Source: Clostridiales bacterium
Lineage (GTDB): Bacteria > Bacillota > Clostridia > Christensenellales > UBA1750
Direction: 5' to 3'
DNA: 44,140 nucleotides
Assembly (NCBI GenBank): GCA_015056005.1
Contig: SVHB01000010.1
Span: forward strand, 1 to 44,140
This document shows, piece by piece, positions 1 to 15,670 of this stretch; the first letter of the stretch is position 1, and each line of letters starts with the position of its first letter. Below the pieces are notes generated by a model that searched no databases, was not told where the DNA came from, and was given only the letters and a program-made list of their open reading frames with translations. The position numbers were made by a program, and so were the translations under genes.

Positions 1-94
1 AACCATCAAGCGAATTATGAAATCGCTTCAGGATAAAAACTATATCCGCCGTGAAAGCGGCAAACGCTACGGCAAATGGGAAGTTTTGGTTTAA
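1..94 (+). CDS. C-terminal fragment of a winged-helix protein (partial)
   Basis: Only the last 30 residues are in the window, read from base 2 to a TAA. They contain a winged-helix-like ending: a recognition-helix-like stretch (TIKRIMKSLQDKNYI) followed by a basic wing (RRESGKRYGKWEV). This pattern ends many ATP-binding AlbA_2/Fic-type transcriptional regulators found on clostridial mobile elements. The full protein cannot be identified from the fragment. It lies 110 bases upstream of vsr in the same direction. Confidence 0.5.
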   Translation, partial: TIKRIMKSLQDKNYIRRESGKRYGKWEVLV

Positions 95-204
95 ATCTTA
101 TTATCCCGCATATATCTTTTCCTCAAGCCCATATTCATTGGTACCATCGGTGCGAAATTTGTAGATGCTTGGTAGAAAATACAACCAATATAGGAGAATT
201 CCAA

Positions 205-621
205 ATGGATAATCATAGCGAAGAACAGCGGCGTAAAAATATGCAAGCTGTAAAAAACAAAGATTCCAAGATCGAAGTTATGTTACGTAAGGAATTATGG
301 AAACGAGGACTACGATACCAAAAGAATAGCAAAAAAGTTTTTGGCAAACCCGATATTGTGTTTATTGGTAAAAAGGTTGCTGTTTTTTGCGATAGTGAGT
401 TTTGGCACGGATATGATTGGGACAACAAAAAGCAAGAAATAAAGTCTCGGCGAGAATTTTGGATCCCCAAAATCGAACGAAACATACAACGAGATATAGA
501 GGTAAACGAGAGACTCAAAACCGAGGGCTGGACTGTTTTAAGGTTTTGGGGGAACGATATAAAGAAAAATTTGACTGTTTGTGCTGATAAAATTGAAAAG
601 GCGGTAAAAGAAAATGTCTAA
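205..621 (+). CDS. vsr: Very short patch repair endonuclease (Vsr)
   Basis: A 138-residue protein of normal Vsr length. Vsr nicks DNA 5' of the T in T:G mismatches left by deamination of 5-methylcytosine, so repair restores C:G. Visible signatures are SKIEVMLRKELWKRGLRY near the N-terminus, the catalytic-aspartate strand KPDIVF, and the metal/zinc-site region VFCDSEFWHGYDW, followed by REFWIPKIERNIQRD and a C-terminal LRFWG strand. The ORF track extends to base 76, but the ATG at 205 has a good site (TAGGAG, 8 bases upstream) and starts where the family starts. The last 8 bases overlap the next methylase gene, which fits co-expression with the C5 methylases whose product it repairs. Confidence 0.93.
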   Translation: MDNHSEEQRRKNMQAVKNKDSKIEVMLRKELWKRGLRYQKNSKKVFGKPDIVFIGKKVAVFCDSEFWHGYDWDNKKQEIKSRREFWIPKIERNIQRDIEVNERLKTEGWTVLRFWGNDIKKNLTVCADKIEKAVKENV

Positions 622-1612
622 ACTGAAATCAATTGATTTGTTTGCCGGTATCGGCGGTATTCGGCTTGGTTTTGATAAAGCATTTAAAGAAGATATTGAA
701 ACGGTTTTCGTTAGCGAATGGGATGAATTTGCTCAAAAAACCTACAAAGCAAATTTTGTAGACAGTTTCGAAATCGCAGGAGACATTACCAAAATCGACG
801 AAAAAGAAATCCCTTCATTTGATATTTGTTTAGCTGGTTTCCCGTGTCAGGCATTTAGTCTCGCCGGACACAGAATGGGATTTGATGACAATTATAAAGG
901 GTTATGCAGAGGAACTCTGTTCATGGATGTTGCCCGTATTTGTGAATATCACAAACCGAAAGTTATTTTCTGCGAAAATGTTAAAGGTTTAGTCATCCAC
1001 GACAAAGGAAGAACTTTCAAGATTATATGTAAGACATTTGAAGATTTAGGATACAAAGTGTTTTATCAAGTCCTAAACAGCAAAAATTACGGTGTGCCGC
1101 AAAACAGAGAAAGAATTTATATCGTTGCATTCAGGAACGATATTGCACCCAATGAATTTATCTTTCCGGACATTATAGATGACAGCAAACGCTTGTGGGA
1201 TATCAGGGAAGAAAAACCTGTACCTGCAAAATATTATCTTAGCGATGTTTATCTGGATACACTTAGAAAGCATAAAGCTCGTCACGAATCTAAAGGTAAC
1301 GGATTTGGTTATGAAATTCGTGATTGGAGCGATATTGCAGGAGCAATCGTATGTGGTGGTATGGGTAGAGAAAGAAACCTCGTTATTGATAAACGTCAAA
1401 AGAACCTCATTCCCACAACGCATATTAAAGGAAACATCAATAAAGAAGGTGTTCGTAAAATGACACCTCGTGAATGGGCACGTTTACAAGGATTTCCTGA
1501 CAGCTTTGTTCTTCCCCTTGCCGATACACACCTATACAAGCAGTTTGGAAACAGTGTTACTGTCAATGTTATTGAAGCAATCGCAAATAAAATCAAGGAG
1601 GTATTGAAATAA
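614..1612 (+). CDS. M.HpaII-like DNA (cytosine-5) methyltransferase
   Basis: A 332-residue C5-cytosine methylase. Motifs in order: SAM-binding DLFAGIGGIRLGF (I), catalytic AGFPCQAFSLAG (IV, Cys nucleophile), FCENVKGL (VI), VPQNRERIYIVAF (VIII), then the target-recognition region and GNSVTVNVIEAI (X). The recognition region (DIREEKPVPAKYYLS, then KGNGFGYEI and GGMGRERNLVID) closely follows what I remember of M.HpaII, so methylation of the inner C of CCGG is likely. This agrees with the HpaII-family endonuclease that follows with a one-base TAATG overlap. It lacks the extra N-terminal segment I recall for M.HpaII. The target is inferred, the enzyme class is clear. Confidence 0.95.
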   Translation: MSKLKSIDLFAGIGGIRLGFDKAFKEDIETVFVSEWDEFAQKTYKANFVDSFEIAGDITKIDEKEIPSFDICLAGFPCQAFSLAGHRMGFDDNYKGLCRGTLFMDVARICEYHKPKVIFCENVKGLVIHDKGRTFKIICKTFEDLGYKVFYQVLNSKNYGVPQNRERIYIVAFRNDIAPNEFIFPDIIDDSKRLWDIREEKPVPAKYYLSDVYLDTLRKHKARHESKGNGFGYEIRDWSDIAGAIVCGGMGRERNLVIDKRQKNLIPTTHIKGNINKEGVRKMTPREWARLQGFPDSFVLPLADTHLYKQFGNSVTVNVIEAIANKIKEVLK

Positions 1613-2745
1613 TGGCTGCAAATAGAGGTGAGTGGGCTGAATTATATGTGCTTTTTAAGCTCTTGGCAGAAGGAAAAATCTATTCAGCTGATGAAAATTT
1701 AAATAGGAATGCCAATTCATATTTAGAGATAATTAAGATTATTCGTGAAGAAGTGCGTAATGTAATCAGTGAATATCACACGGGCACTTCAGTAGAAGTA
1801 TTTGTTTCGGGAAATCACGTAGTTTCCATCCCCTCGGTTGATTTTTTAACCAATGCCGATTTATTGCTGGACACTATCAATCATGCAACCGGGCGTTCAT
1901 TTGATGTGACTCCTGCAACAGAAGCATTTATGAATCGTGCTCACATTACTCAAGTTAAAGCGAAGAGCGTAAGCAGTTATGGAGATTTGGGTGGCAAAAA
2001 TGATATAGTGATGGAAATTCGTGATCACTCTACCGCCCTCATATCAGTTGCCGGTTTTTCTATAAAAGCTAAAGGTAAAAGCCCGGCAACTTTATTTAAT
2101 ACCGCTCCCGCATCTGCATTTGTTTATAGATTAACCAATCTTAACGATACGGATATGAATAACATAAATAATTTGTTTACCACAACGGGAGGCAAAGACA
2201 AAAACGCTCGCTTAAAATATATCGTAGACCACGATATAAATATGGAATTTATGGGGAACAAAATTCCTGAAGGTAAAGAACATTCTGTCTTTGCCGACAA
2301 TTTAGATATGGTAAGAGGAGATATGCAGGAAATAATGAATCAAGCCATATTGATTCACTATACATATGATGGAGATAGTACAAAACTCTCTGATATTTGC
2401 AGTGTTCTTGTCAACAAAAATCCTCTTAACAAAAGAAATGCAGAAGCATTTTACACCAAAGCACTTAAGGATTTTCTATACGCATCTTTTGCTGGAATGA
2501 CAGCCGGATCTCCTTGGGATGGAAGAGAAGTTGTAAACGGTGGGTATATTGTTGCTAAAGAAAATGGCGAGGTGTTGGTTTTCCATACTCGAGATGGCGA
2601 ATCTTTCAAAACATTCTTGTTTAATTCCACTAAAATTGATCGCCCAGATGCCTCTGAAAGAAAAGGTTATCCGTATGCGCATGTATACAAAGTAAATGAT
2701 GAGTATTACTTTGATTTAAATTTCCAGATCAGATTTACAAGCTGA
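1612..2745 (+). CDS. HpaII-family type II restriction endonuclease
   Basis: 377 residues, close to R.HpaII length (about 360). The N-terminus (NRGEWAELYVLFKLLAEGKIYSADENL) is the hallmark of the HpaII endonuclease family, and the protein sits between two C5 methylases. A lysine- and acid-bearing stretch, THITQ-like followed by VKAKS and later FSIKAKGKSPATLF, could hold catalytic residues, but I cannot assign the active site with certainty. The predicted activity is cleavage of unmethylated CCGG. Translation is coupled on both sides: TAATG overlap with the upstream methylase and TGATG overlap with the downstream one. Nothing suggests truncation. Confidence 0.88.
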   Translation: MAANRGEWAELYVLFKLLAEGKIYSADENLNRNANSYLEIIKIIREEVRNVISEYHTGTSVEVFVSGNHVVSIPSVDFLTNADLLLDTINHATGRSFDVTPATEAFMNRAHITQVKAKSVSSYGDLGGKNDIVMEIRDHSTALISVAGFSIKAKGKSPATLFNTAPASAFVYRLTNLNDTDMNNINNLFTTTGGKDKNARLKYIVDHDINMEFMGNKIPEGKEHSVFADNLDMVRGDMQEIMNQAILIHYTYDGDSTKLSDICSVLVNKNPLNKRNAEAFYTKALKDFLYASFAGMTAGSPWDGREVVNGGYIVAKENGEVLVFHTRDGESFKTFLFNSTKIDRPDASERKGYPYAHVYKVNDEYYFDLNFQIRFTS

Positions 2746-3698
2746 TGAAAGATAAATCATTACGTATAGGAAGCCTTTTTGCCGGTATTGGTGGAATTGA
2801 TTTGGCATTTGAACAGGCAGGTTTTGAAATCGTTTGGGCAAATGAAATAGATCCTGATGCTTGCAAAACCTACAGACACAACTTCCCGTCAACTCGTTTG
2901 ATTGAGGGAGACATAAAAGACATTGAACCCTGCTCATTAGAATCAGTTGATGTGATAACCGCAGGATTTCCATGCCAATCATTTTCCGTTTGTGGAAATC
3001 AAAAAGGATTTAATGATAACCGAGGAAATTTATTCTTTGAAATAATAAGGATAGTTGATGTACTCAACCCAGCAGTTATCTTCTTGGAAAATGTTGCCAA
3101 CCTTACAGAGCATGATAACGGAAGAACATTCAATATTATTCATAATGAGTTGGCATACAGAAATTATTACATCAGATACATTATAGCTGATGCTTACGAT
3201 TATGGTATTCCTCAACACAGAACAAGAACGTATATAGTTGCTTTTAAATCACAAGAAGCTTGCGTTAACTTTAAATTTCCCGATAAGGTTAATCTGAAAA
3301 AACGGATATTTGATGTTATCGATAAAGCTGCTAAAGTTGATGATTCATTTTATGCGAAGCCTGATTCTTATCAATATAAAAAACTATCTGAATTCATTAA
3401 GGATGATGGACAAATATATCGTTTTTCGGATTATGGAATTCAATCAAGCAAAGATGGAATATCATTCACGCTAAAAGCAAATATGGGGACTTGGAAAGAA
3501 CGTATTCCGTATATAAAAGACAGTTATGGAATCCGAAAAATCACCCCTTACGAATGTCTTGCCTTACAGGGATTTCCTCAAGAATATCGTTTCCCAAAAA
3601 TTCCAATCGCAAGTGCATATAAACAATGCGGTAATAGCGTAGTTGTACCGATAATCAGAAAAATAGCAGAGCAAATAGCGATAGTAATTATGCCATAG
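2745..3698 (+). CDS. Second DNA (cytosine-5) methyltransferase
   Basis: 317 residues with a complete C5-methylase motif set: SLFAGIGGIDLAFEQAG (I), ANEIDPDACKTYRHNF (II), AGFPCQSFSVCG (IV), FLENVANL (VI), GIPQHRTRTYIVAF (VIII) and QCGNSVVVPII (X). The target-recognition segment (SFTLKANMGTWKERIPYIKDS) differs completely from that of the first methylase, so it probably recognises another sequence or strand context; I cannot name the site. It begins inside the stop codon of the endonuclease gene (TGATG). Two C5 methylases around one HpaII-type enzyme is unusual, because a palindromic CCGG site needs only one. It may protect against a second nuclease or be a remnant of another system. Confidence 0.93.
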   Translation: MKDKSLRIGSLFAGIGGIDLAFEQAGFEIVWANEIDPDACKTYRHNFPSTRLIEGDIKDIEPCSLESVDVITAGFPCQSFSVCGNQKGFNDNRGNLFFEIIRIVDVLNPAVIFLENVANLTEHDNGRTFNIIHNELAYRNYYIRYIIADAYDYGIPQHRTRTYIVAFKSQEACVNFKFPDKVNLKKRIFDVIDKAAKVDDSFYAKPDSYQYKKLSEFIKDDGQIYRFSDYGIQSSKDGISFTLKANMGTWKERIPYIKDSYGIRKITPYECLALQGFPQEYRFPKIPIASAYKQCGNSVVVPIIRKIAEQIAIVIMP

Positions 3699-3721
3699 TA
3701 TCAAACCAAAGGAGTACAAAT

Positions 3722-5125
3722 ATGAGGCGAGAAAACATTTCAATTGATCTATTATTACTTTCAGACGGAAATCCCAGATTGGATCCGTCGTTGGGAGAAG
3801 ACGAAGCTATTTTTAATATGGTTAATGACCAAAATGATAAGTTGTTTGAGCTCGCTTCTGATATTGTTAAATACGGACTGAATCCATTAGATACAATCGG
3901 TGTTTATCCATCTGAAACATATCATGGGTTTTATGAAGTTGGCGAAGGTAACCGCCGTATATGTGCATTAAAACTATTGATTTCCCCTGAACGCATCCAA
4001 CATATTAATGGCAGTTTGCATTCAAAATTCCTATCTTTATCAAAGGCATTCTCGGCACCCAGCTCTATAGAAGTAGGAGTATTTAATGATGAAATATCTA
4101 TGCGGCATTGGATGGAAATTCGTCATATGGGTGAGCAAAGCGGTAAGGGATTATCGAAGTGGAATTCTGTACAAAAAGCTCGTTTTAACCGAATGCAAAC
4201 AGGTTCTGATGCATTGTTGGATTTTTGGGACTGGATGATTGCAAACAGTATCCTTTCTGAAGCGGAAATCTTAAGTGTTACAAAAACCAATTGGCAGCGA
4301 ATTCTTCGTGAAAAGTATTTTCAGTTTTTAAAAATTCAATATGACGGAAATTATTCGGTTTTGCCTAAAGATATAGATGTTTTCGCATATCGAATCAAAG
4401 AAGTCCAAAAAAAGTTAGATGGACAAACAGTTGCTATAGTGTATGACCAAATAAGGATTGAAGAATTTTTTAATTCTATTTCAAATGCGCTATACGGAAA
4501 GCCCTACCAAGAAGTAGTGAGCGAAGAATCAGAACAAGTCAGCATTCTTCCTTCTGTGCAAGGAACTAACGTTAATAACGAAACGGAACAAGTTGGCGTT
4601 ATTTCCAAATCTCAAAGCGGTTCTGTTAGTGGTTTCACTATTGAAGAAAACGATGATAGTAACCTCACTCAGACTATTTTAAATACTGCACAAACCATCG
4701 GAAGAGATGTTTTTAATGGTTGTGGCACAATTATTCCATATGGGTACCCTATTCGCACTGACAATATGCGATTAAATAAAATAATCAATGAGCTCAAAAG
4801 AATCAATGCTGATGATTATCCAAATGCTTGTGGAACTCTTTTGAGAACGCTTTTCGAACTTTCGGCAAAGGTATATTTAGAAAAACAGGATGGTCAAGAT
4901 CATACTGAAACTGAATTTTCGCCAGCTATTAAACAAGCAGCTAATCTATTGCGCCAGCAAGGATGTATCGACAACAGTCAACATTCGGCCATTTATAGTG
5001 ATATTGACAATTTAAGAAAGATTTTTAATGGTTATATGCATAACACTGAATCTTACCCAAGTAGCGAAGCCCTTAAAAATTTCTTTAAATGCCACCGTGT
5101 GTTTATACAAGAGTGTTTAAAGTAA
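3722..5125 (+). CDS. ParB/Srx-fold protein with helical, possibly HEPN-like tail
   Basis: 467 residues. The N-terminal about 100 residues look like the ParB/Srx nucleotide-binding fold: GNPRLD, a helix ending in IVKYGLNPLDTIGVYP, and the box-II-like VGEGNRRICALKLL, where GNRR matches the conserved G-x-RR turn. A helical middle follows (about 140-260), then a low-complexity polar linker (about 265-310). The C-terminal about 120 residues have a LLRTLFELSAKVYLE helix and a later NGYMHN, which resembles HEPN/DUF4145-type bundles; that assignment is weak. It starts at an ATG with AAAGGAG 7 bases upstream and lies 15 bases before the ATPase gene. I infer a DNA-sensing or effector partner of that ATPase; no function is demonstrated. 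Confidence 0.7.
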   Translation: MRRENISIDLLLLSDGNPRLDPSLGEDEAIFNMVNDQNDKLFELASDIVKYGLNPLDTIGVYPSETYHGFYEVGEGNRRICALKLLISPERIQHINGSLHSKFLSLSKAFSAPSSIEVGVFNDEISMRHWMEIRHMGEQSGKGLSKWNSVQKARFNRMQTGSDALLDFWDWMIANSILSEAEILSVTKTNWQRILREKYFQFLKIQYDGNYSVLPKDIDVFAYRIKEVQKKLDGQTVAIVYDQIRIEEFFNSISNALYGKPYQEVVSEESEQVSILPSVQGTNVNNETEQVGVISKSQSGSVSGFTIEENDDSNLTQTILNTAQTIGRDVFNGCGTIIPYGYPIRTDNMRLNKIINELKRINADDYPNACGTLLRTLFELSAKVYLEKQDGQDHTETEFSPAIKQAANLLRQQGCIDNSQHSAIYSDIDNLRKIFNGYMHNTESYPSSEALKNFFKCHRVFIQECLK

Positions 5126-5140
5126 CAGGAAGGTGATATT

Positions 5141-6790
5141 GTGATTAAAAATATAAATATTATTCAATATCGAAAACTCAAGGATTTGACGTTAAGTTTT
5201 ACAAAAAACATCAATGCAATTTCAGGTACTAATGGTACTTGTAAAACATCATTATTGCATCTGTTAGGTAATTCTTTGCAAGCTCCAACGAAAACATGCA
5301 GTTGGATAACCGATGAGAAATGTTTGCCTATAGTCAAAGCTGTAAATAATGTGACAAATCCAAAGGTTGAAAGTCTTACTCGTGGAGATCAAACATATAA
5401 TGATCCCGCTCACGGAGTAAAAGGTCCATTATTCTCAGTTGATTATTATGGTGCAGAATCCTTAAACTTTAGACGTCATAATTCCACACAAATGACTCGT
5501 TATGCCGTAAAACCAAAATATCAACCAGGGACAAAAGATACATTGCCGTATTGCCCTGTAATATATTTAGGACTGTCAAGATTAGTGCCTTTTGGTGAGT
5601 TTCAGAATGATGATGCATTATCTAACATAAAGAAAAAATTGCCTCAATCATATCAAGAGGAAATTGCCGAACTTTATAAAAAATTCACCAATTATGAAAT
5701 CTTATTTAACGCCACTAAACAGATGGGCGATATAAAGGTAAGAAGTGAATTTTCAAGCAATGTAGAAGGTATCGACTCTAATACAATATCTGCTGGCGAG
5801 GATAACTTGAGTATTATACTTACAGCACTTATCTCACTAAAATACTATTATGAATCCATATCTTCTACTAACGAAGTAGAAAGTGTTCTCTTGATTGATG
5901 AAATGGATGCAACACTACATCCCGCTTTCCAAATCAAACTTTTGAATTTGTTCCGTGAAATGTCTGAAGCATATAAGATGCAGGTGGTATTCACAACACA
6001 TAGTATGTCTCTTTTGGAAGAGATGCTCGCAAAAAAGGACAATGTACTATATTTAATTGATAATGTAACTTCAGTTTTCCAAATGGAAGAGCCTGATATC
6101 TACAAAATCAAAATGCATTTACAATCTTTAACGCAAGAAGACATCTATGAAGATAAAGTAATACCTTTGTTTACCGAAGATGATGAGGCACGCTGCTTGC
6201 TTGAATTACTTTTTGATTACTATCAGAAAACATATTCTGAGTTCCGAAACGTTAGTGGACTGTTCCACAAGGTTCTCACTAACATTAGTGCAGAAAACTT
6301 AACAGGAATATTCACAGATAGTAAACTTTTACATACTACTATGCGGTCTATTTGTGTTTTGGATGGCGACCACAAGTCTGACATAACAAACTTCATTGTG
6401 GCTCTTCCCGGAAAGGTTGCTCCAGAAGCGGTATTGTTAAATTATATCGAGAAGCTTTATAATGATGACGATCCTTTTTGGAGAGATAGAACCATAGTTG
6501 ACAAAGGTTATACAAAAAACTACTATATTACTAATATAAAAAATATAGTTGATAATTTTGAAGCAGATCTTGTTAGATTGCACGAAAACGGCGAGTCTGC
6601 CAAAGGCAAACGCCGAGCGTTCAATAAAAAACTTTTTAATGATAACCAAAACTTTTTCAAATTAGTATTCAAACATTGGATTCACAACCCCATAAATAAA
6701 TCCGAAGTTGAGCGCTTCTATAATGAACTTCATATCTTATTCCTAAAAGTAGCGCCTTATCACGAAATTAATCCAAAGGAATGGGCATAA
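5141..6790 (+). CDS. OLD-like AAA ATPase with possible TOPRIM-like C-terminus
   Basis: 549 residues. The N-terminus gives an ABC/SMC-like fold: a P-loop at residues about 28-36 (SGTNGTCKTS), a shortened signature SAGEDN near 216, Walker B VLLIDEMDATLHP near 248-260 and a switch histidine in VVFTTHSMSLLEE. The C-terminal half has an acidic EDDEARCLLELL near 345 and CVLDGDHKSD near 405, which could be the E and DxD of a TOPRIM nuclease as in OLD/GajA proteins; this is weaker. The P-loop has Cys where the glycine before Lys is expected. It starts at GTG behind GGAAGGTG. Packing with the ParB-like gene upstream and the adenine methylase downstream suggests an anti-phage module. Confidence 0.75.
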   Translation: MIKNINIIQYRKLKDLTLSFTKNINAISGTNGTCKTSLLHLLGNSLQAPTKTCSWITDEKCLPIVKAVNNVTNPKVESLTRGDQTYNDPAHGVKGPLFSVDYYGAESLNFRRHNSTQMTRYAVKPKYQPGTKDTLPYCPVIYLGLSRLVPFGEFQNDDALSNIKKKLPQSYQEEIAELYKKFTNYEILFNATKQMGDIKVRSEFSSNVEGIDSNTISAGEDNLSIILTALISLKYYYESISSTNEVESVLLIDEMDATLHPAFQIKLLNLFREMSEAYKMQVVFTTHSMSLLEEMLAKKDNVLYLIDNVTSVFQMEEPDIYKIKMHLQSLTQEDIYEDKVIPLFTEDDEARCLLELLFDYYQKTYSEFRNVSGLFHKVLTNISAENLTGIFTDSKLLHTTMRSICVLDGDHKSDITNFIVALPGKVAPEAVLLNYIEKLYNDDDPFWRDRTIVDKGYTKNYYITNIKNIVDNFEADLVRLHENGESAKGKRRAFNKKLFNDNQNFFKLVFKHWIHNPINKSEVERFYNELHILFLKVAPYHEINPKEWA

Positions 6791-6811
6791 CACATGAGAG
6801 GAGGGAATAAT

Positions 6812-7672
6812 TTGCCACTAACACCATCACCGCTAAGATATCCTGGCGGGAAAACTAAACTGTATAATTATGTTAAATCAATTATAGAAGCTAATAATTT
6901 GATTGGAGAGACATATATCGAGCCTTTTGCCGGTGGATCAGGGTTGGCTTTAAAACTATTATTGAATAACGATGTGAAAAGAATTGTAATCAATGATTTG
7001 GATCCAGCGATATATGCATTTTGGTATTGTGTGCTTAATCATCCTGATGAAATGTGTGATTTTGTTACTACAGTTTCGTTAACAGTTGAAGAATGGGATA
7101 ATCAACACAGTATATACGTCAATCAGCAGGCCCACACTCAGTTAGAATTAGCTAAAGCAACATTGTTTTTGAATAGAACCAATGTATCCGGTGTTATTAC
7201 TGGTGGTGTGATTGGAAAGCGAGATCAAACAGGTAAGTACAAAATAGATGCTCGATTTAACAGAGAAGAACTTGCAAGGAAGATACGAACAATATCCGCA
7301 TTATCAAATAAAATTGATTTGTATAATTTAGATGCTGTGACTTTTTTGCAAAACGAACTGCACCACTATTACAAAGCCTTTATCAACTTCGATCCTCCAT
7401 ATGTGGTCAAAGGTGGACAATTATATAAGAACTCCTTTTCTGAGGAGGATCATCGTTTGCTTAGAAACCAAATTGCCAAGTGCAAAAGAAAATGGATAGT
7501 CACGTATGATGTGTGTGATCTGGTTGCGAAACTTTATTCTGGCTTTAGAAGAAGTACTGTAGACATCTACTATAGTGCAAATGGAGCAAAAAAGGCTAAG
7601 GAATACATTTTCTTTAGTAACAATTTGATATTGCCCGAAGATACATCTTTTATAAACAACAATGAGAATTAA
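6812..7672 (+). CDS. D12-class DNA adenine (N6) methyltransferase, Dam-like
   Basis: About 286 residues with the D12 class layout: LRYPGGKTKL at the N-terminus, motif I YIEPFAGGSGLALKLL, the second acidic strand VINDLDPAIYAFW, and catalytic motif IV NFDPPYV. The enzyme transfers a methyl group to N6 of adenine; its target is unknown, and it is divergent from enteric Dam. I chose a TTG start because AGAGGAGGG lies 6 bases upstream of it and the family begins close to LTPSPLRYPGGK. The ATG at 6794 would put the ribosome site inside the gene. It follows the ATPase by 21 bases and ends the + strand defence block, so it may be the self-marking component of that module. Confidence 0.9.
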   Translation: MPLTPSPLRYPGGKTKLYNYVKSIIEANNLIGETYIEPFAGGSGLALKLLLNNDVKRIVINDLDPAIYAFWYCVLNHPDEMCDFVTTVSLTVEEWDNQHSIYVNQQAHTQLELAKATLFLNRTNVSGVITGGVIGKRDQTGKYKIDARFNREELARKIRTISALSNKIDLYNLDAVTFLQNELHHYYKAFINFDPPYVVKGGQLYKNSFSEEDHRLLRNQIAKCKRKWIVTYDVCDLVAKLYSGFRRSTVDIYYSANGAKKAKEYIFFSNNLILPEDTSFINNNEN

Positions 7673-7693
7673 CTATTCCATAAACAAACATAA

Positions 7694-7716
7694 GCACGAG
7701 AGGTTAACTCCCGTGC
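7694..7716. terminator. Stem-loop between convergent genes
   Basis: GCACG-A-GAG pairs with CTC-C-CGTGC around a short loop (one A/C mismatch). T-rich sequence follows on both strands. It lies between the 3' ends of the adenine methylase gene (+) and the small - strand gene, so it probably terminates both. Confidence 0.55.
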
Positions 7717-7722
7717 CTGTTG

Positions 7723-7869
7723 TTATTTTGTGTATTTGATTAAGAGCTCGTCGACACCGTCGGTATACTTACCTTGAGATAATATCTTGTTTCGGTATTC
7801 AAGCAAGCATTGAAGGATGAAGCGGTGTTCCTTGTCGGTCAGACGAAGGTAGTATTTCCGTTTTCTCAT
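7723..7869 (-). CDS. Small basic conserved protein of clostridial mobile elements
   Basis: 48 residues beginning MRKRKYYLRLTDKEH and ending in a short helix with QGKYTDGVDELLIK. I recognise this as a widespread small protein of clostridial conjugative and mobilizable elements; its function is unknown. The ORF track reads further upstream, but that part overlaps tnpV and the family starts at MRKRKYYLRL. Its start overlaps the tnpV stop by 4 bases, so it is probably translated by coupling from tnpV. No cysteines, signal peptide or membrane segment are present. Confidence 0.7.
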   Translation of the reverse strand: MRKRKYYLRLTDKEHRFILQCLLEYRNKILSQGKYTDGVDELLIKYTK

Positions 7870-8237
7870 ACGAACACCACGTTTGAATAGACAGTTTCGA
7901 TTATACGCTCTCGTATGTTGTTCATCCATTGCACCCACTTTATTTGGTCGGTAGCTTTGAGTTGTTCGGTGATGCCTTCTTTTTCGGCGTGTTCTTTTAC
8001 AAGCCGAGAAAAGAGGTCTTGTGCTTGCTCTTCGATGTCTGCGAGGTGGGAATGGAGCTTACCGGAAGTGAGCAGGTTATAGTACAATACTTTGCGGTGA
8101 TGCTTTAGGTAATTCAGTCTGCGCTGTCCCCATACACCGATAGGGCGTTCTTCTTCGGTAGGTGGAAGCAGATTTGGCAAGCGGTAATCGCCCTGCATTG
8201 TGTATGTGCCGCCTTGCTTTTCAAATATTGATTTCAT
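7866..8237 (-). CDS. tnpV: TnpV-like transposon-encoded protein
   Basis: 123 residues matching the TnpV family of clostridial transposons and integrative elements: KSIFEKQGGTYTMQGDYRLPNLL at the N-terminus, then RRLNYLKHHRKVLYYNLLTSGKL, and a helical C-terminus with GITEQLKATDQIKWVQWMNNIRERI. The biochemical role of TnpV is not established; it is useful as a marker of element DNA. The start ATG has AGGAGG about 8 bases upstream. It follows the DUF6809-like gene by 13 bases and overlaps the next small gene, so the three form one - strand transcription unit read away from the tRNA scar. Confidence 0.85.
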   Translation of the reverse strand: MKSIFEKQGGTYTMQGDYRLPNLLPPTEEERPIGVWGQRRLNYLKHHRKVLYYNLLTSGKLHSHLADIEEQAQDLFSRLVKEHAEKEGITEQLKATDQIKWVQWMNNIRERIIETVYSNVVFV

Positions 8238-8250
8238 ATGTAATCCTCCT

Positions 8251-8553
8251 TTATGATTCCTTCAGCAAATCTTCAAACGGTGTTTCGGTGGAGATAAACG
8301 CATCGTAGGCAAAGTTAGCGCCCAAGCGGAATCCCATAATGAAGCTATCAAGATTAGATTCTCCATTTACTACACTCCACGCATTTGAGAAGTCGAGAAA
8401 CCATTTCTTTTGCTCGTCCTGAAGAGCGTTGGTTAGCTGTTCTTCGGTTTTGGTCAGCACGGCCATTTCCTTTTGCACCGTCTTATTTTGCTTTGTGCTT
8501 CGAGCCTGTGGATCAATGTTGCCATAATAAAATTCTTCGATAAATCGTGCCAT
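8251..8553 (-). CDS. DUF6809-like small protein
   Basis: 100 residues starting MARFIEEFYYGNIDPQ, followed by a helix with EMAVLTKTEEQLTNAL, then FLDFSNAWSVVNGESNLDSFIMGFRLGANFAYDAF. This pattern is common in small proteins of clostridial mobile elements that I associate with DUF6809; no function is known. The ORF track extends 26 residues further, but the ATG chosen has AGGTG 8 bases upstream and matches the family start. It is the first gene of a three-gene run with tnpV. It has no membrane segment. Confidence 0.7.
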   Translation of the reverse strand: MARFIEEFYYGNIDPQARSTKQNKTVQKEMAVLTKTEEQLTNALQDEQKKWFLDFSNAWSVVNGESNLDSFIMGFRLGANFAYDAFISTETPFEDLLKES

Positions 8554-8632
8554 AAATAATGCACCTGCCTTTCGATTATAGTTTAGCAAAATCAAAAGAC
8601 AGGTGCGAGTGTGCGAAAATTCAAATCGCACA

Positions 8633-9205
8633 TTACCGTTTCTGTTTCATTTTTCTTTGAAAATCATTCAGCGTTTGCACGTGCCACATACTCTTTCGAG
8701 TAATAGAGCGAAATGTCAAAGAGCAGAAGAAATCAACAAGAAAAATTTTAGGTATGTAGAATATTTGTCTTTTACGGAATGATTTCAGATAACCTCTATT
8801 ACACCAGTTATTTATCGTTGTTTTAGCGTATCCGGTCAAATCCATAACTTCCTTGACAGTCAAAACGTCATTATAGTCCTTTAAAAGTTTTGAATAATAG
8901 ACGTGCATACAGCCGAGCACTTCTTCAGGTAGCTCTTTTGAGAGTTTTGCCACATAGTGATTTCCGTACCACCCGCTTGGGGCAGAATACAGTTCAGGAT
9001 AGACGGCACGGGTTTGTAAATATTCTTTGACATCCTCTTTTTTAATCTTGTAGCATCGTGTTTTCTTGCCCGTCCACTCACAAGGAACCTTACCGCTTTT
9101 TAGCAAATGTAATGCAGTCGATTTACTGATATGGCAAATCCGATAGAATTGATCTTTGTTTATTACATCGGGAATACTATCCCAGTCAATAAATTGATAT
9201 TTCAT
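8633..9205 (-). CDS. Tandem excisionase-like helix-turn-helix protein
   Basis: About 190 residues with two excisionase/MerR-type helix-turn-helix units: one near residues 16-62 (DQFYRICHISKSTALHLLKSGKV ending in KKEDVKEYL) and one near 115-160 (LTVKEVMDLTGYAKTTINNW, then RQIFYIPKIFLVDFF). The pairing of a helix-turn-helix with a winged strand suggests specific DNA binding, either as a recombination directionality factor or a regulator of the element. I chose the ATG with GAGGTG 6 bases upstream; the two upstream Met codons lack a site. It is the gene closest to the attR scar and is preceded by 21-bp tandem repeats that may be its binding sites. Confidence 0.7.
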   Translation of the reverse strand: MKYQFIDWDSIPDVINKDQFYRICHISKSTALHLLKSGKVPCEWTGKKTRCYKIKKEDVKEYLQTRAVYPELYSAPSGWYGNHYVAKLSKELPEEVLGCMHVYYSKLLKDYNDVLTVKEVMDLTGYAKTTINNWCNRGYLKSFRKRQIFYIPKIFLVDFFCSLTFRSITRKSMWHVQTLNDFQRKMKQKR

Positions 9206-9263
9206 TTGATACACCTCGAACATAATTTTGTCGGTATGGAGTCCGTTCTTTGGTGTGTTGCCT

Positions 9264-9305
9264 TCTATCATTTTTTCTTCCCAATCTATCCATTTTTCTT
9301 CCCAA
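9264..9305. repeat. Two 21-bp tandem direct repeats near the element end
   Basis: TCTATCATTTTTTCTTCCCA repeats immediately as TCTATCCATTTTTCTTCCCA (21-bp period, one substitution). The period equals two helical turns, as in protein-binding iterons. They lie about 60 bases upstream of the tandem-HTH gene. A further pair, TCCGAAAAAT, recurs at 9308 and 9336. Confidence 0.6.
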
Positions 9306-9911: not shown

Positions 9912-10751
9912 ATGGGAGTTATCGAGACTTTATTGATCACTACCTTCCTTGCCGGTGTGGTGGGAACGGGCTTGGGCGGCCTGATAGGCGCGCTTCTGGA
10001 AAAGGATTCAAACAGGACCGTCAGCCTGCTTTTGAGCTTTGCGGGCGGCGTTATGCTCAGCGTTGTCTGCTTTGACCTTGTTGTCGAGGCGATCGAGACC
10101 AACGTGGGCGTGCTTACCGTTATAGGCGCTATCGCGGCGGGCGTTGCGATAATTTATTTGCTCAACTATCTTATAGACAAAAAGACCAACCCCGAGGTGC
10201 CGCACATCGACGAGAACCACCCCAAGACTGCGGACGATCTGGATGAGCTCATCCACAGCGACCATCTTGAGCAGCATTACGCAAAAAACGATAAGAAATT
10301 CAGCCTGTTTATTGCAGGTATCGTTATGGCAAGCGCGATCGCGCTGCATAACGTGCCCGAGGGCATGACGATAGGCGCTTCCTATGCAAGCAATAACGGC
10401 GTGATGGGCAGCGCTGCGCTGGTTCTTGCCGTTCTTATCGGTCTTCACAATATCCCTGAGGGCATGGCGGTCTCTGTTCCTCTGATAGCGGGCGGCATGC
10501 CCAAATGGAAATCCGTGCTGATCACTGCAAGCTCGGGTGTTCCCACCATGATAGGCGCGCTCCTTGGCTTCCTTCTGGGCGAGATCGGCCCGCTCGGCCT
10601 TGCGATAAGCCTTGGCTTTGCAAGCGGCGCGATGCTGTATGTCGTCTTTGGCGAGATCCTGCCTCAGGCTATACTCATGTATCACAGCAAGCTGCCCTCT
10701 TTCTCTGCGATAGTGGGCATACTGGTAGGCCTTTTCATCATCTTTATTTAG
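9912..10751 (+). CDS. ZIP-family divalent metal transporter
   Basis: 279 residues, typical for bacterial ZIP (ZupT/GufA-like) permeases that import zinc or other divalent metals. Eight hydrophobic segments are visible. The metal-site helices are recognisable: HNVPEGMTIG in TM4 and HNIPEGMAVSVPL in TM5, with GEILPQAILM near the C-terminus. A histidine- and acid-rich loop (HIDENHPK, HSDHLEQH) lies between TM3 and TM4, as usual for metal capture. The ATG is preceded only by a weak site (ACAGG), and a TATAAT at 9828 has no clear -35 partner. It stands alone, 28 bases ahead of a methyltransferase gene, and may be co-transcribed with it. Confidence 0.92.
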   Translation: MGVIETLLITTFLAGVVGTGLGGLIGALLEKDSNRTVSLLLSFAGGVMLSVVCFDLVVEAIETNVGVLTVIGAIAAGVAIIYLLNYLIDKKTNPEVPHIDENHPKTADDLDELIHSDHLEQHYAKNDKKFSLFIAGIVMASAIALHNVPEGMTIGASYASNNGVMGSAALVLAVLIGLHNIPEGMAVSVPLIAGGMPKWKSVLITASSGVPTMIGALLGFLLGEIGPLGLAISLGFASGAMLYVVFGEILPQAILMYHSKLPSFSAIVGILVGLFIIFI

Positions 10752-10778
10752 GCGCGCTTTGGTTTAGGAGAGTTTGAT

Positions 10779-11429
10779 ATGCTTGAAAAAATGGCGAATT
10801 TTTTTGAAAACAGGATATCCGATTACGATGAGCATATGCGAAGGGATATTTTTGGCGCAAAGGAGTTTTATCCCTTTACGGCTGCGTGCCTGCCCGCATG
10901 CCCCGGGGCAAAGGTTTTGGATCTTGGCTGCGGCACCGGGCTGGAGCTGGAGGATTATTACAAAATAAATAAGAGCGCCGATATCACGGGTATCGATCTT
11001 TCACAGGGGATGCTCAAGAAGCTTGCGCAGAAATTCCCGGATAAAAAACTAACCCTTATCTGCGGCTCGTATTTTGAAGAGGATATGGGTTTGGAAGTTT
11101 TTGACGCAGCTGTTTCGGTCGAATCTCTCCATCATTTTACCAAAGAAGAAAAAATACCGCTGTATAAAAAGCTGTTTGGTGCTCTTAAAAGCGGCGGATA
11201 TTTCATCCTCACCGATTATTTTGCCGATACGACTAAGCGCGAAGAGTTTTTTGCCAAAGAGCTTTTGCGGCTCAAAAAGGAAAACGGTATAAACGATAAC
11301 GAGTTTTATCATTACGATACTCCGCTGACCGTGGAGCATGAAACTCAGGCGCTTTTAAGCGCCGGGTTCACATCGGTAAAGGTATTGAAAAGCTGGGAAA
11401 ACACATACACTCTCAAAGCCCAAAAATAA
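10779..11429 (+). CDS. Class I SAM-dependent methyltransferase
   Basis: 216 residues with a Rossmann-type methylase core: motif I VLDLGCGTGLELEDYY near residue 47, the acidic strand ADITGIDLSQGMLKKL, and a motif IV region FDAAVSVESLHHF, then FGALKSGGYFILTDYF. Such proteins methylate small molecules or cofactors; the substrate cannot be read from sequence. The short C-terminal segment (LTVEHETQALLSAGFTSVKVL) is typical of the Methyltransf_25 type. An AGGAG lies 8 bases upstream of the ATG. It follows the ZIP gene closely and ends at a strong terminator, so the two may be one transcription unit. Confidence 0.88.
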   Translation: MLEKMANFFENRISDYDEHMRRDIFGAKEFYPFTAACLPACPGAKVLDLGCGTGLELEDYYKINKSADITGIDLSQGMLKKLAQKFPDKKLTLICGSYFEEDMGLEVFDAAVSVESLHHFTKEEKIPLYKKLFGALKSGGYFILTDYFADTTKREEFFAKELLRLKKENGINDNEFYHYDTPLTVEHETQALLSAGFTSVKVLKSWENTYTLKAQK

Positions 11430-11431
11430 GC

Positions 11432-11472
11432 ATACGCCCGAAGAAATATCCTTCGGGCGTATATTTTTGTTT
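11432..11472. terminator. Intrinsic terminator, convergent
   Basis: ATACGCCCGAAG pairs with CTTCGGGCGTAT (12 bp) followed by ATTTTTGTTTTT on the + strand. It separates the methyltransferase gene from the convergent zinc-ribbon genes and likely serves the + strand. Confidence 0.85.
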
Positions 11473-11739
11473 TTACAGCTTTTTTCCGCATTGCGGGCAG
11501 AAGCGCGCGAAGCGGTTTAGAACGATCCTGCAATCATCGCAGTGGTGATTGCTTTCGTAATATTCGTCAAAAAGGCTTTTTTCGGGCAGCGGCGAAGAGC
11601 AGATATCGCATTTTACTGCCTTTGCATCGCATTTGCAGCCGCAGGTTTTGCAGACTTTGATCTTTTTCATCGCCTCGGTACCAAAACCGAGCTCTTCCAT
11701 ATCAGTTTTTCGAAGTTTTATAAGCTTTTGCGCAGTCAA
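11473..11739 (-). CDS. Zinc-ribbon protein, small
   Basis: 88 residues if started at a TTG that has GAGAGGTGG upstream and sits just past the stop of the preceding gene. Cysteine pairs are CKTCGCKC, CDICSSPL, HHCDDC and FCPQCGKKL, giving two zinc ribbons in tandem. There is no membrane segment or signal peptide. Its role is unknown; it may be a scaffold or a partner of the upstream zinc-ribbon protein. The ORF track version starting at 11865 overlaps the upstream gene by over 120 bases and reads through unlike sequence, so I reject that start. Confidence 0.65.
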   Translation of the reverse strand: MTAQKLIKLRKTDMEELGFGTEAMKKIKVCKTCGCKCDAKAVKCDICSSPLPEKSLFDEYYESNHHCDDCRIVLNRFARFCPQCGKKL

Positions 11740-11740
11740 G

Positions 11741-12100
11741 CTATTCCACCTCTCTGTACCTGAGCTTTGAACCGCATTTGCGGCAGAAAACATCGTCGGG
11801 GTCAACTCTTTGCCCGCACTGAGAGCAAAAATGGGGAGTATCCTCCCATGGAGTGCATATCGCACAGTTGAGGGTATCGGCGTTGTACATTTCGTCGCTC
11901 ACCCATTTGCCGCATTTCTGGCATCTGTTGAAATGGTTTTTGCCGTCGCGCTCCCATGCGATATACAAAGCATCTTCCTCGGTCTGAGCAAAGGTAGGGT
12001 TACTGGTAGCCACCAGCATTCCGGAGGCTTCGCAGAAAAAATGGTAACGCCTGCCCTTGTCGCTTGTGATCATCCTGTAGGGCGCAGTCTGACCTCTCAT
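11741..12100 (-). CDS. Zinc-ribbon protein
   Basis: 119 residues. The N-terminal half (YRMITSDKGRRYHFFCEASG, then ALYIAWERDGKNHFN) has no cysteine motif apart from one Cys and may be a small beta domain. The second half has zinc-binding pairs: CQKCGKWV with CAIC, then FCSQCGQ with FCRKCGSKL. It starts at an ATG behind AGGAGG-type sequence and is directly followed by the smaller zinc-ribbon gene, so the two form a pair. No enzyme motif is visible. The upstream region is shared with a + strand promoter. Confidence 0.75.
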   Translation of the reverse strand: MRGQTAPYRMITSDKGRRYHFFCEASGMLVATSNPTFAQTEEDALYIAWERDGKNHFNRCQKCGKWVSDEMYNADTLNCAICTPWEDTPHFCSQCGQRVDPDDVFCRKCGSKLRYREVE

Positions 12101-12125
12101 AACAGCTCTGCCTCCTTTGCGCTTG

Positions 12126-12154
12126 TTGTTTCATACCTGTATTTATGTTATAAT
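12126..12154 (+). promoter_or_regulatory. Sigma-A-type promoter
   Basis: TTGTTT and TATAAT are separated by 17 bases. Transcription would start near 12161 and run about 250 bases before the solute-binding protein gene, giving a long structured leader. Confidence 0.6.
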
Positions 12155-12253
12155 AAAAAAATAAGGAAGGGCGAATTTGTTCGTTGGCGTGTCAAAGAGA
12201 TTTTCAAAAAGGATGACCTTGTTTGAAATAGGGAGCCCTTCTGTTGGGGTGTC

Positions 12254-12284
12254 AAGCATTGCTCGTTCTCCTTGGGCGATGCTT
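12254..12284 (+). promoter_or_regulatory. Leader hairpin upstream of the binding-protein gene
   Basis: AAGCATTGCTC pairs with GGGCGATGCTT (11 bp, two G-U pairs) around a 9-base loop, followed by an A/T-rich stretch. It lies inside the predicted leader. A 13-base direct repeat (GTTGGNGTGTCAA) occurs at 12183 and 12243. Possible regulatory RNA or protein site; function unknown. Confidence 0.4.
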
Positions 12285-12312
12285 ACATTTATTATTTTAT
12301 ATTATTCCGTGT

Positions 12313-12347
12313 TTTTGTCCCCACACCAAAACGGAAAATGGGTGGGA
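12313..12347 (+). other. Bulged-hairpin motif, copy 1
   Basis: TTTTGTCCCCAC followed after a short loop by AAAATGGGTGGGA. The arms can pair as an 8-bp stem with bulges. A second copy with a cleaner stem is at 24605. It sits in the leader about 65 bases before the ATG of the lipoprotein gene. Confidence 0.4.
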
Positions 12348-12412
12348 AAAGAATGGATTTCTTCAAAACGCGGTATTTTGTGCATGATTTTTCTGCCAAG
12401 GAGGAAAATGCC

Positions 12413-13741
12413 ATGAAACGATTTGTGTCTCTGCTTGTGTCGGCGGTGCTTCTTATGCTGCTTTTGACAGGCTGTGCAGAAAATACGTCCCTTTCGCCCT
12501 CGGATCCCGTCACCGTTACCCTGTGGCATGTATACGGTGAGCAGGCAGATTCGCCCATGAACCGCCTTGTCGAGGAGTTCAATTCAAGCGTTGGCCTTGA
12601 AAAGGGCATCGTGGTGTCGGTCACCAACGTGACCGGCTCGTCAAAGATCAGCGGCCAGCTCGAAGCTGCCATCGCGGGGACCCCCGGCGCGCTTGAGATC
12701 CCCGACCTGTTTTCCTGCCATACCAATACTGCGGTGGTCATCGGAGCGGACAAGCTTGTTGACTGGAACGATTTCTTTACCAAAGAAGAACTTTCCGATT
12801 TCGTGCCCGAATTCATCGAGGACGGCACAAAGGACGAAAAATTTGTGGTTTTCCCTGTGTCCAAGTCCACATATGCGCTTTTCATAAACGGCTCCCAGTT
12901 TGAAAGGTTCTCCGCAGATACGGGCGTAAATTATGATATGCTTTCCACATGGGAGGGCTTCTTTGACGCTGCTCAAAAATACTATGAATGGTCGGGCGGC
13001 AAGACCTTCTGCGCGCTCGATTACCTCATCCGCCATGTGGAGCTGGACGTTCTTGCAAAGGGCGATGAGCTTGAATACACTCAAAACGGCTGGTATGACC
13101 TTGAAAGCGAGTCCGTAAAGGAAAGCTTCATGATGTTTGCAAACGCTATTGCCAAGGGGCATATCGCGGTCTCCGACCTTTATGCAAACACTCAGGTAAT
13201 GACGGGCGAGGCGCTCTCGGGCATCGGCTCCACCGCGGCTATCGGCTATTATAACGACGAGGTCACCTATCCCGACAACACCAAAGAGTCCACCAATCTT
13301 CAGGTGCTGCCCCTGCCAAGGAGCGGCGAGGGCACTCAGTATATGCCCCAGACCGGCGTAGGGCTTGCTGCCTATTACAAAAACGAGCGCAAGGCCGAGG
13401 CGGCGGCAGAGTTCATCAAATGGTTCACTCAGGGCGAGCGCAACCTCGATTTTGTAGTAAGCACAGGCTATATGCCCGTGAACAACGCCGCCTTTGACGC
13501 GATCGAAAATTATGATTTTGATTCTCAGGGCTACTTAAATCTCTACAGCGCCATAAGGCAGATGCGGGAGGAATATATCCCCGTCGTCCGTCCCGATTTT
13601 GACGGCTACTACGATAAGGTCAACGAGCTATATGACGGGATCAGAGGAATGCAGGCTGAGCTTTCACAAAGAAGCGATTCGGGCGAGGACGTTTCGGTGC
13701 TTGCAAACGAGATCTGGGAGCTTTTCAGCTCTATCAGGTGA
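12413..13741 (+). CDS. Lipoprotein extracellular solute-binding protein (family 1)
   Basis: About 442 residues. A signal peptide with a lipobox (LLLTGC) marks a lipid-anchored extracellular protein. TVTLWHVYGEQADSPMNRLVEEFN is the typical opening of ABC sugar-type (MalE-like) binding proteins, and the C-terminal half (TGVGLAAYYKNERKAEAAAEFIKWF and ERNLDFVVSTGYMPV) also fits. The ligand is unknown, perhaps an oligosaccharide. I chose the ATG at 12413 because of AAGGAGG upstream and the signal peptide that follows; the longer ORF adds unlike sequence. No permease or ATPase gene is adjacent. The next gene is a membrane-bound regulator 18 bases away, so this protein may present its ligand to that sensor. 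Confidence 0.88.
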   Translation: MKRFVSLLVSAVLLMLLLTGCAENTSLSPSDPVTVTLWHVYGEQADSPMNRLVEEFNSSVGLEKGIVVSVTNVTGSSKISGQLEAAIAGTPGALEIPDLFSCHTNTAVVIGADKLVDWNDFFTKEELSDFVPEFIEDGTKDEKFVVFPVSKSTYALFINGSQFERFSADTGVNYDMLSTWEGFFDAAQKYYEWSGGKTFCALDYLIRHVELDVLAKGDELEYTQNGWYDLESESVKESFMMFANAIAKGHIAVSDLYANTQVMTGEALSGIGSTAAIGYYNDEVTYPDNTKESTNLQVLPLPRSGEGTQYMPQTGVGLAAYYKNERKAEAAAEFIKWFTQGERNLDFVVSTGYMPVNNAAFDAIENYDFDSQGYLNLYSAIRQMREEYIPVVRPDFDGYYDKVNELYDGIRGMQAELSQRSDSGEDVSVLANEIWELFSSIR

Positions 13742-13759
13742 CCCAAGGGGTGGTGAGAT

Positions 13760-15670
13760 GTGCGTCTTTTGCGTATGACGAAATATCCCGAATGGACGCT
13801 GAAGAGAAAGCTCTTTGGCTATATGCTGCTTCTGGCAGCGGTGCTCATACTTACCGTTATGGTGGGCTTTTTTCTGCTGGGCAGGTTTGTGATAACTCAA
13901 AAGGACGTCTATGATACCCTTGATGTGCAGATGGAGGTCTTTGAAAGGGATATAGAGACCCATTTTGATCATCTCTTTGCCGCAAGCATACGACTTTCAT
14001 ATAACATGAGCGAAATGCTTGAGGAATATTTTGCCGATAATGACGTCTCGATACGATCAATAACCGATTCAGCCGACGATATAGCCGCCCTTCAGGAAAA
14101 GATGATCGAGCATCTGAGCTTCAAGCTCTTGCAGGAGGAATGCTCAGGCGTTTTCGTTATGCTGGATACCACCATAAACAGCGCGCTTGAAAATTCCGAC
14201 CTTTCAAGAACCGGAATATATCTTCAGATAAACGGCTATGAGGACTCGAGCGAAAATATGCTGCTCTACCGAGGCTCCTCGAATATCGCAAAGCGCCATG
14301 GGATAATGCCGCACAGGAAGTGGCGTCTGGAGTTCAGAACGGATCTTTTCCCAAATTACGATAAGATCATGGAGTTGTCCTCCGATTTGCCGGAAACTGC
14401 CTATTATTTGACCGACCTTTTTAAGCTGCCGGGGACCTCCGACGAGGTCATGCTGCTTGTAAGCCCCATAAAGGGCAGCGACGGAAGCTTTTTGGGCGTC
14501 TGCGGTTATGAGGTCAGTAAAAGCTTTTTTATGACCCATCACGCTCAGCCCAGCAAGCTTGATCACATGGTATGCCTTTTAAGCCCCGGAGACGGAAATG
14601 AGCTTTATTCCTCCATGGGTCTTAGCTGCGGCATAAGCAAGGGCTATTACAGAGCTCCAAGCGGCGTTCTGACTTTGGAGGGCGAGCGGGGAGGTTTGCT
14701 TGAATTTTCGGGCGATTCCGTGCCCTATATCGGCATCACCCGACCGATATCCTTTACCCCCAATAACGAGGACAGCTATCTTTCGGTCATGCTGCTCAAG
14801 GACGATTATGACAGAAGCATAAGAAAATCGACTCTCCAAAACCTGCTGCTTTTGGTGTTTGTGCTCTTCTTTGCGGTCAACTGCTGTTTGTTTTTCTCAA
14901 GACGGTTTTTGTCGCCGCTGCTTAAAGGGCTGGAGCAGCTCAAATCCGACAGGCATGCGGGTACCAATATACCCGAGATCGACGACCTTTTTGAGTTTTT
15001 GGCGGAAAAAGATAGAAAATACGAGGAAAAGGTGAACGACCTTATCCGCGAAAACAGGACCGCGCTCATTGAAAAGGAAAGCCTTCTGCGCGATCATGAA
15101 AAAGCGCAGCAGCGTCTGGATGAGCTTTTGCTTGCATTGAAGGTAAAGGACAGGCAGCACGAGGAAGCCCTTTTGATCCTTGACAGGGAAAAAAGAGAGA
15201 TACAGCGCGAAAAGGATAAGCTGATCAGCGAAAACATCAGCGCGCAGGGAGACAGGGACGAGCTTCTTTCCTCACTTTATAAAAAAGAACTGGAATATGA
15301 GGAAAGCCTACAGCTTCTTATAAGGGAGAAAAACGAGCTTATCGAGCAGGTCGAACAGGCAAAGGCAAACTACACCGCCGCTCAGGAGAACCTTTCAAGA
15401 ATAGCCTATAAGATGCGTCAGGAGATCGACCCCGACGATTATCAGTGCTTCTTAAACGGCATCAGGGACCTCACCGCCGCCGAGCGCAAGATATTCGATT
15501 TGTATTTTGACGGCAAAAGCGCAAAGGAGATCCTTGATATCCTGCAGATAAAGGAAAATACCCTCAAATATCATAACAAGGGAATCTACAGCAAGCTTGG
15601 AGTATCATCCAGAAAACAGCTTTTGCAGTATGCTTCCCTCATGAAACAGCAGAACGAAAACGGCGAATAA
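13760..15670 (+). CDS. Membrane-anchored LuxR-type sensor/regulator
   Basis: 636 residues. TM1 is near 18-44, then an extracytoplasmic segment of about 310 residues that looks Cache-like but is not confirmed. TM2 (NLLLLVFVLFFAVNCCLFFS) is near 358-378, followed by a HAMP-like stretch (RRFLSPLLKGLEQLKS), a long charged coiled coil (about 400-555) and a C-terminal LuxR helix-turn-helix (LTAAERKIFDLYFDGKSAKE and ENTLKYHNKGIYSKLGV). The order sensor-TM-coiled coil-HTH suggests a one-component receptor that binds DNA while in the membrane. It starts at GTG behind AAGGGG; an ATG two bases earlier is out of frame. Paired with the binding-protein gene, it probably responds to that protein's ligand. 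No kinase or receiver domain is present. Confidence 0.85.
   Translation: MRLLRMTKYPEWTLKRKLFGYMLLLAAVLILTVMVGFFLLGRFVITQKDVYDTLDVQMEVFERDIETHFDHLFAASIRLSYNMSEMLEEYFADNDVSIRSITDSADDIAALQEKMIEHLSFKLLQEECSGVFVMLDTTINSALENSDLSRTGIYLQINGYEDSSENMLLYRGSSNIAKRHGIMPHRKWRLEFRTDLFPNYDKIMELSSDLPETAYYLTDLFKLPGTSDEVMLLVSPIKGSDGSFLGVCGYEVSKSFFMTHHAQPSKLDHMVCLLSPGDGNELYSSMGLSCGISKGYYRAPSGVLTLEGERGGLLEFSGDSVPYIGITRPISFTPNNEDSYLSVMLLKDDYDRSIRKSTLQNLLLLVFVLFFAVNCCLFFSRRFLSPLLKGLEQLKSDRHAGTNIPEIDDLFEFLAEKDRKYEEKVNDLIRENRTALIEKESLLRDHEKAQQRLDELLLALKVKDRQHEEALLILDREKREIQREKDKLISENISAQGDRDELLSSLYKKELEYEESLQLLIREKNELIEQVEQAKANYTAAQENLSRIAYKMRQEIDPDDYQCFLNGIRDLTAAERKIFDLYFDGKSAKEILDILQIKENTLKYHNKGIYSKLGVSSRKQLLQYASLMKQQNENGE

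Follow-up and report, generated by a model that had tools for sequence, protein, structure and literature searches.

Within the 44,140-nucleotide window analyzed here, contig SVHB01000010.1 of a Clostridiales bacterium, three open reading frames (ORFs) on the forward strand (3722-5125, 5141-6790 and 6794-7672) form a cluster of about 4 kb. The first and third are full-length homologues of components A and B of the defense system PD-lambda-5, B being a D12-class N6-adenine DNA methyltransferase, and the second encodes an OLD-family protein. We find that either candidate effector, A or OLD, pairs near-exclusively with this subfamily of D12 methylases; the OLD gene is a widespread, apparently unnamed partner of the marking enzyme of PD-lambda-5. 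We lean slightly toward reading the trio as a three-gene anti-phage cassette, in which one adenine-methyl mark shields self DNA from two different effectors. The broader proposal, that an OLD gene and a D12 methylase make up a widespread and unnamed two-gene restriction-like system, representing a new class of OLD genetic context, and that trio loci let two unrelated effectors share one mark, seems to us evenly balanced.

Among the 80 genome loci of our methylase-hub survey, which are the best matches of the scan and not a census, the methylase is accompanied by A only in 44, by OLD only in 14, by both in nine and by neither in 13; several of these 13 are truncated where the contig ends or have different defense-like partners. 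In viral loci fetched with the OLD sequence the methylase is adjacent in 77 of 79 and on the same strand in 75, with gaps mostly between -4 and about 80 bases, and in the other two the contig stops at or just past the OLD gene. A class-wide genome survey with an OLD profile found the methylase in nine cases out of nine, and A as well in three of them (the window included). As a control, Dam-type D12 methylases from the hub scan were inspected, and either effector was found beside none of 40. In restriction-modification (R-M) systems, constant linkage to a methylase usually signals protection of self DNA. The window is like a type II R-M system in that an adenine methylase is fixed to a predicted nuclease; it differs in that this nuclease is an ATPase-TOPRIM protein and no classical restriction endonuclease, and in that a ParB/HEPN-like protein can replace it. 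A restriction-like use of the methyl mark by the OLD protein is plausible.

The methylase (PD-Lambda-5_B, 6812..7672) matches the PADLOC model PDLC04018 with an expectation value (E) of 3.3e-110 and the Pfam family PF02086 with E = 6.5e-22, and its DPPY catalytic motif (7391..7402; D200-P-P-Y203) is invariant across 12 aligned homologues. An ATG at 6794 is a possible start, but the TTG at 6812 is preferred because an AGGAGG-type ribosome site lies 3' of the ATG and the N-terminus of the family, M..SPLRYPGGK, agrees with the TTG. With this start the methylase follows the OLD gene by 21 bases; the OLD gene follows gene 1 by 15.

Gene 1 (3722..5125, 467 amino acids) is matched by 25 PADLOC PD-Lambda-5_A models, the best of them (PDLC03998, E = 9.3e-77) over its full length (463 residues, 1-463), and such models also recognize each of the 69 sequences in the A-family alignment. 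The protein is composed of an N-terminal ParB/Srx-like domain, a disordered linker (residues 265-324) and a C-terminal all-helical, HEPN-like domain; its structure model has a predicted local distance difference test score (pLDDT) of 85 and a predicted template-modeling score (pTM) of 0.55. Foldseek matches of the N-terminal domain in the PDB are to ParB, KorB and Noc (E from 1e-3 to 1e-2, probability ~1.0) and to sulfiredoxin, while two family members match GmrSD_N and one matches ParB_N; searching the PDB with A-family sequences gave nothing useful. Within the predicted nucleotide-binding box of this fold, the E-G-N-R-R motif (residues 75-79; 3944..3958), G76, N77, R78 and R79 are identical in 69 of 69 homologues and position 75 is Glu in 59 and Asp in 10. 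The likeness of the helical tail to HEPN domains is weak, with a best PDB HEPN match at E = 1.2; His440 (5039..5041) is invariant (69/69) and R375 is kept in 68 of 69, yet the two do not show the canonical R-x4-6-H spacing.

PD-lambda-5 came out of a functional selection carried out in E. coli. It had an effect on all but one of the ten phages tried, a broad protection that is published for the E. coli homologue only, and it was labelled a compacted restriction-modification plus abortive infection (RM+Abi) system. The assays used a host from which the mrr region had been removed (Vassallo 2022; PMC9519451), which suggests that the methylase of the system may be active. The window departs from this system in that A and B are not directly adjacent: a 549-amino-acid OLD protein is encoded between them, on the same strand and in the same cluster, and the PADLOC models cover A and B only. 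The initial annotation, made from the sequence alone, had described three tightly spaced same-strand genes forming a defense module, and both the ORF coordinates and the PADLOC assignment of genes 1 and 3 agree with it. Its adenine methylase is confirmed by PF02086 and its ParB/Srx fold by Foldseek; its HEPN-like tail persists as a weak resemblance. It had recognized no named system, which holds for the middle gene and fails for genes 1 and 3, catalogued as PD-lambda-5. The profile and structure predictions it had proposed for the first two proteins were run, and gave the PD-Lambda-5_A and OLD-family assignments.

The OLD gene (5141..6790, GTG start, 549 amino acids) belongs over its full length to PHROG 3940 (phrog_3940, E = 7.5e-97), which carries the annotation 'unknown function'. 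Its domain matches are generic (AAA_15, E = 1.9e-15, and AAA_21) and its best PADLOC models, HEC-04 (E = 1.3e-18), ATPase-Toprim_I-B and PtuA, are all partial. The protein has the two parts that define the OLD family. The N-terminal ABC ATPase contains Walker A (5225..5248; G29-T-N31-G-T-C-K35-T), the ABC signature (S217, G219) and Walker B (5885..5902; ..L-L-I-D253-E254), and the C-terminal TOPRIM part contains the acidic residues E346-D347 (6176..6181) and the D408-G-D410 motif (6362..6370). All of the numbered residues are invariant in 59 of 59 homologues, and the possible TOPRIM residues of the initial annotation are upheld. No Pfam TOPRIM model matched the protein, and the TOPRIM placement follows from the alignment of ATPase-Toprim_I-B to residues 220-443 (E = 1.9e-17) and from the fold. 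In the PDB, the closest kin of the AlphaFold model (pLDDT 87) are the retron Eco8 effector, PtuA, GajA and TsOLD (Thermus OLD), with E from 5e-11 to 1e-9; as the template-modeling scores are low (~0.2-0.4), we claim kinship at the level of domains only. These features fit an ABC ATPase that is active and a TOPRIM site that binds metal. Among the loci surveyed there are also damaged copies: in a human faecal phage contig (L032:4027-5137) a deletion seems to have merged the OLD gene with the methylase, leaving a decayed copy, and in Fusobacterium vincentii (L027:6001-7663) the OLD gene is split in two frames between the TOPRIM motifs and is followed by an intact methylase.

The window protein shares the ABC ATPase, the C-terminal TOPRIM, the invariant acidic residues and the Foldseek kin of OLD nucleases of classes 1-4 (P2 Old/TsOLD, Gabija GajA, the retron I-B/Eco8 effector and PARIS AriA/AriB). 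The contexts of these proteins given in a 2023 review are a single gene, a UvrD-like helicase, a reverse transcriptase and the split AriA/AriB (PMC10568477); a D12 adenine methylase, as in the window, is absent from them. In Menshen (NsnABC) an OLD-like nuclease likewise has a ParB/DUF262-fold protein as its neighbor (PMC10952713), and the window ATPase matches NsnB weakly (E = 3.6e-14), but its neighbors match neither NsnA nor NsnC and a methylase is present. Septu, Gabija, PARIS, retrons and Menshen were all rejected as identities of the ATPase, since the PADLOC matches are partial, the NCBIfam scores fall far below cut-offs and the partner genes are absent: the scanned neighbors include no GajB UvrD-like helicase, no PtuB HNH nuclease and no reverse transcriptase, and the NCBIfam PtuA score is 43.8 against a cut-off of 500. 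The OLD-methylase pairing is unnamed in the PADLOC 2023, NCBIfam 2026 and PHROGs libraries, and we found no description of an OLD-methylase defense system in the open-access literature, a coverage that leaves out bioRxiv and most subscription papers, where an earlier mention is possible. The A and B part is already known, and the OLD-methylase pairing appears to lack a name.

The pair also occurs in prophages. One subtype of the pair, a methylase-OLD pair from a P2-like prophage whose OLD protein is 44% identical to that of the window, is present in 15 of 5,426 E. coli genomes; in the one genome inspected, it is flanked by the P2-type replication endonuclease on one side and the portal gene on the other. 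The contents of this gpA-gpQ slot vary among A-methylase, methylase-OLD and all three genes, and in two loci (L299, L335) all three adjoin the portal gene. This is the old/tin slot of P2, a hotspot that carries anti-phage genes (PMC10568477, PMC9122126). OLD-methylase pairs seen there in E. coli P2-like prophages (L365:6001-8561, L210-L220) are annotated just as AAA family ATPase and DNA adenine methylase. Presence in this slot, together with the retron Eco8 effector, GajA and TsOLD among the structural kin and the characterization of PD-lambda-5 as RM+Abi (PMC9519451), would also suit an OLD protein acting as a guard, which detects that a host nuclease or the methylase/R-M layer has been inhibited and then aborts infection, much as PARIS senses Ocr or P2 Old responds to RecBC loss. 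We consider such a guard unlikely; it leaves unexplained why nearly every OLD copy is tied to one methylase subfamily.

The neighborhood search proposed at the outset found homologues of the trio together elsewhere, in 18 lineages counted after dereplication at 80%. On the methylase tree (195 sequences, quick search, Shimodaira-Hasegawa-like approximate likelihood ratio support) the labels for A and for OLD each fall in clusters, with many switches, and the three-gene label requires 18 changes for 18 rows, at least 16 of them forced by supported branches, with gain and loss indistinguishable. The three-gene combination is therefore recurrent. On the OLD tree one supported clade of seven (Bacteroidota, Gammaproteobacteria and phages) is wholly three-gene; despite this clade, a single conserved three-gene system was rejected as the general picture because the trios are scattered. 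The window belongs to a different supported clade of 13, the rest of which are two-gene OLD-methylase loci (one without a methylase above the score cut-off), and its neighbors there are from Oscillospiraceae and Desulfosporosinus. Its OLD protein and methylase are nearest to those of two-gene systems (L047, L048), at 55-61% identity.

This proximity favors an alternative that we hold to be less probable though serious, namely that the cluster combines two independent tandem units, an OLD-methylase pair and an orphan or self-sufficient PD-Lambda-5_A, on a common transcript and with separate mechanisms. The surroundings, a defense island with an HpaII-type R-M set, are in keeping with it, as is the lack of correlation between A and OLD distances across 15 three-gene loci (Mantel r -0.07). 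The same value argues against the initial view of the ParB-like protein and the ATPase as a pair, which is not obligate, each usually standing alone with the methylase. Independence of the units is, however, hard to reconcile with the nearly constant company of this methylase that A keeps, with A-methylase distances that correlate even within the three-gene loci (r 0.66, p 5e-4, Mantel), or with the 15-base spacing of A and the OLD gene, apparently in one operon. Two-gene loci show correlation for both pairs (A-methylase 0.60, OLD-methylase 0.37).

Other observations weigh against a cassette built on a shared mark. In the 15 three-gene loci the OLD-methylase distances are uncorrelated (r 0.05, p 0.37), which points to the OLD gene as a looser add-on in many trios. 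The order A-OLD-methylase is rare, with one other case in the survey (L291), whose A gene is broken, and the window OLD gene has no close relative in 60 related genomes.

In the shared-mark cassette that we nonetheless favor, a Bacillota/prophage-type OLD-methylase module would have been joined by a PD-lambda-5 effector. The D12 methylase would methylate host DNA and so mark it as self, and both effectors, of different chemistry, would be gated by this mark and licensed, alternatively or jointly, where it is absent. The ParB/Srx-HEPN-like protein would be one such effector; the OLD protein would cut DNA once its ATPase engages unmarked invader DNA. We infer that the OLD-methylase pair is defensive and that the members of the trio cooperate; DNA cleavage by OLD, control of the effectors through methylation, the specificity of the methylase and synergy of the effectors are likewise predictions. 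The opposite logic, with effectors acting on or activated by methylated DNA in the manner of type IV or SspE-like systems, is very improbable: the ParB/Srx fold is indeed common to GmrSD_N/DUF262 proteins that read modified DNA (PMC10952713), but the methylase would then expose the DNA of its own host.

Directly 5' of the trio, on the same strand and with genes nearly gapless or near-overlapping, lies an HpaII-type R-M set (205-3698) composed of a Vsr endonuclease and, after it, two C5 methylases with an HpaII-family endonuclease between them; the set possibly forms one transcript with the trio. A promoter scan gave fewer matches than shuffled sequence did. Right after the trio, on the opposite strand, genes for TnpV, a DUF6809 protein and a helix-turn-helix protein (7866-9271) mark a mobile-element boundary. 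The GC (guanine plus cytosine) fraction is 0.33-0.38 in bases 1-8000 against 0.46-0.52 in 10000-14000, and this lower value fits an acquired island. Neighbor domains and GC shift accordingly uphold the placement of the trio, in the initial annotation, on an island between an R-M set and mobile-element genes.

The methylase subfamily also has other company. In three loci (L063, L106, L112; domains from L063) it has a Schlafen AlbA_2-type protein on one side and a HerA helicase with a NurA-like protein on the other, an apparent further defense module using the D12 methylase. Elsewhere the genes after it encode a DndB/DpdB-like (ParB-superfamily) protein and one of unknown kind (L122:1112-3030), or it stands beside an unnamed multi-gene set (L079:1412-6121 and L076) whose products include a small, membrane-like protein and a large one of ~850 amino acids; L079 also has a HIT-like protein and a sequence that matches MazG/PRA-PH weakly.

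These results suggest that a common two-gene module of OLD and methylase, present at the P2 defense hotspot of E. coli, is absent from PADLOC 2023, which would label loci with all three genes simply as PD-lambda-5. By way of a common methylase they connect the OLD nucleases with PD-lambda-5, a system of unsettled mechanism, and raise the question of whether a methyl mark is a common self-signal for interchangeable effectors. If the shared-mark cassette is correct, a phage that blocks or bypasses one effector would still face the other.

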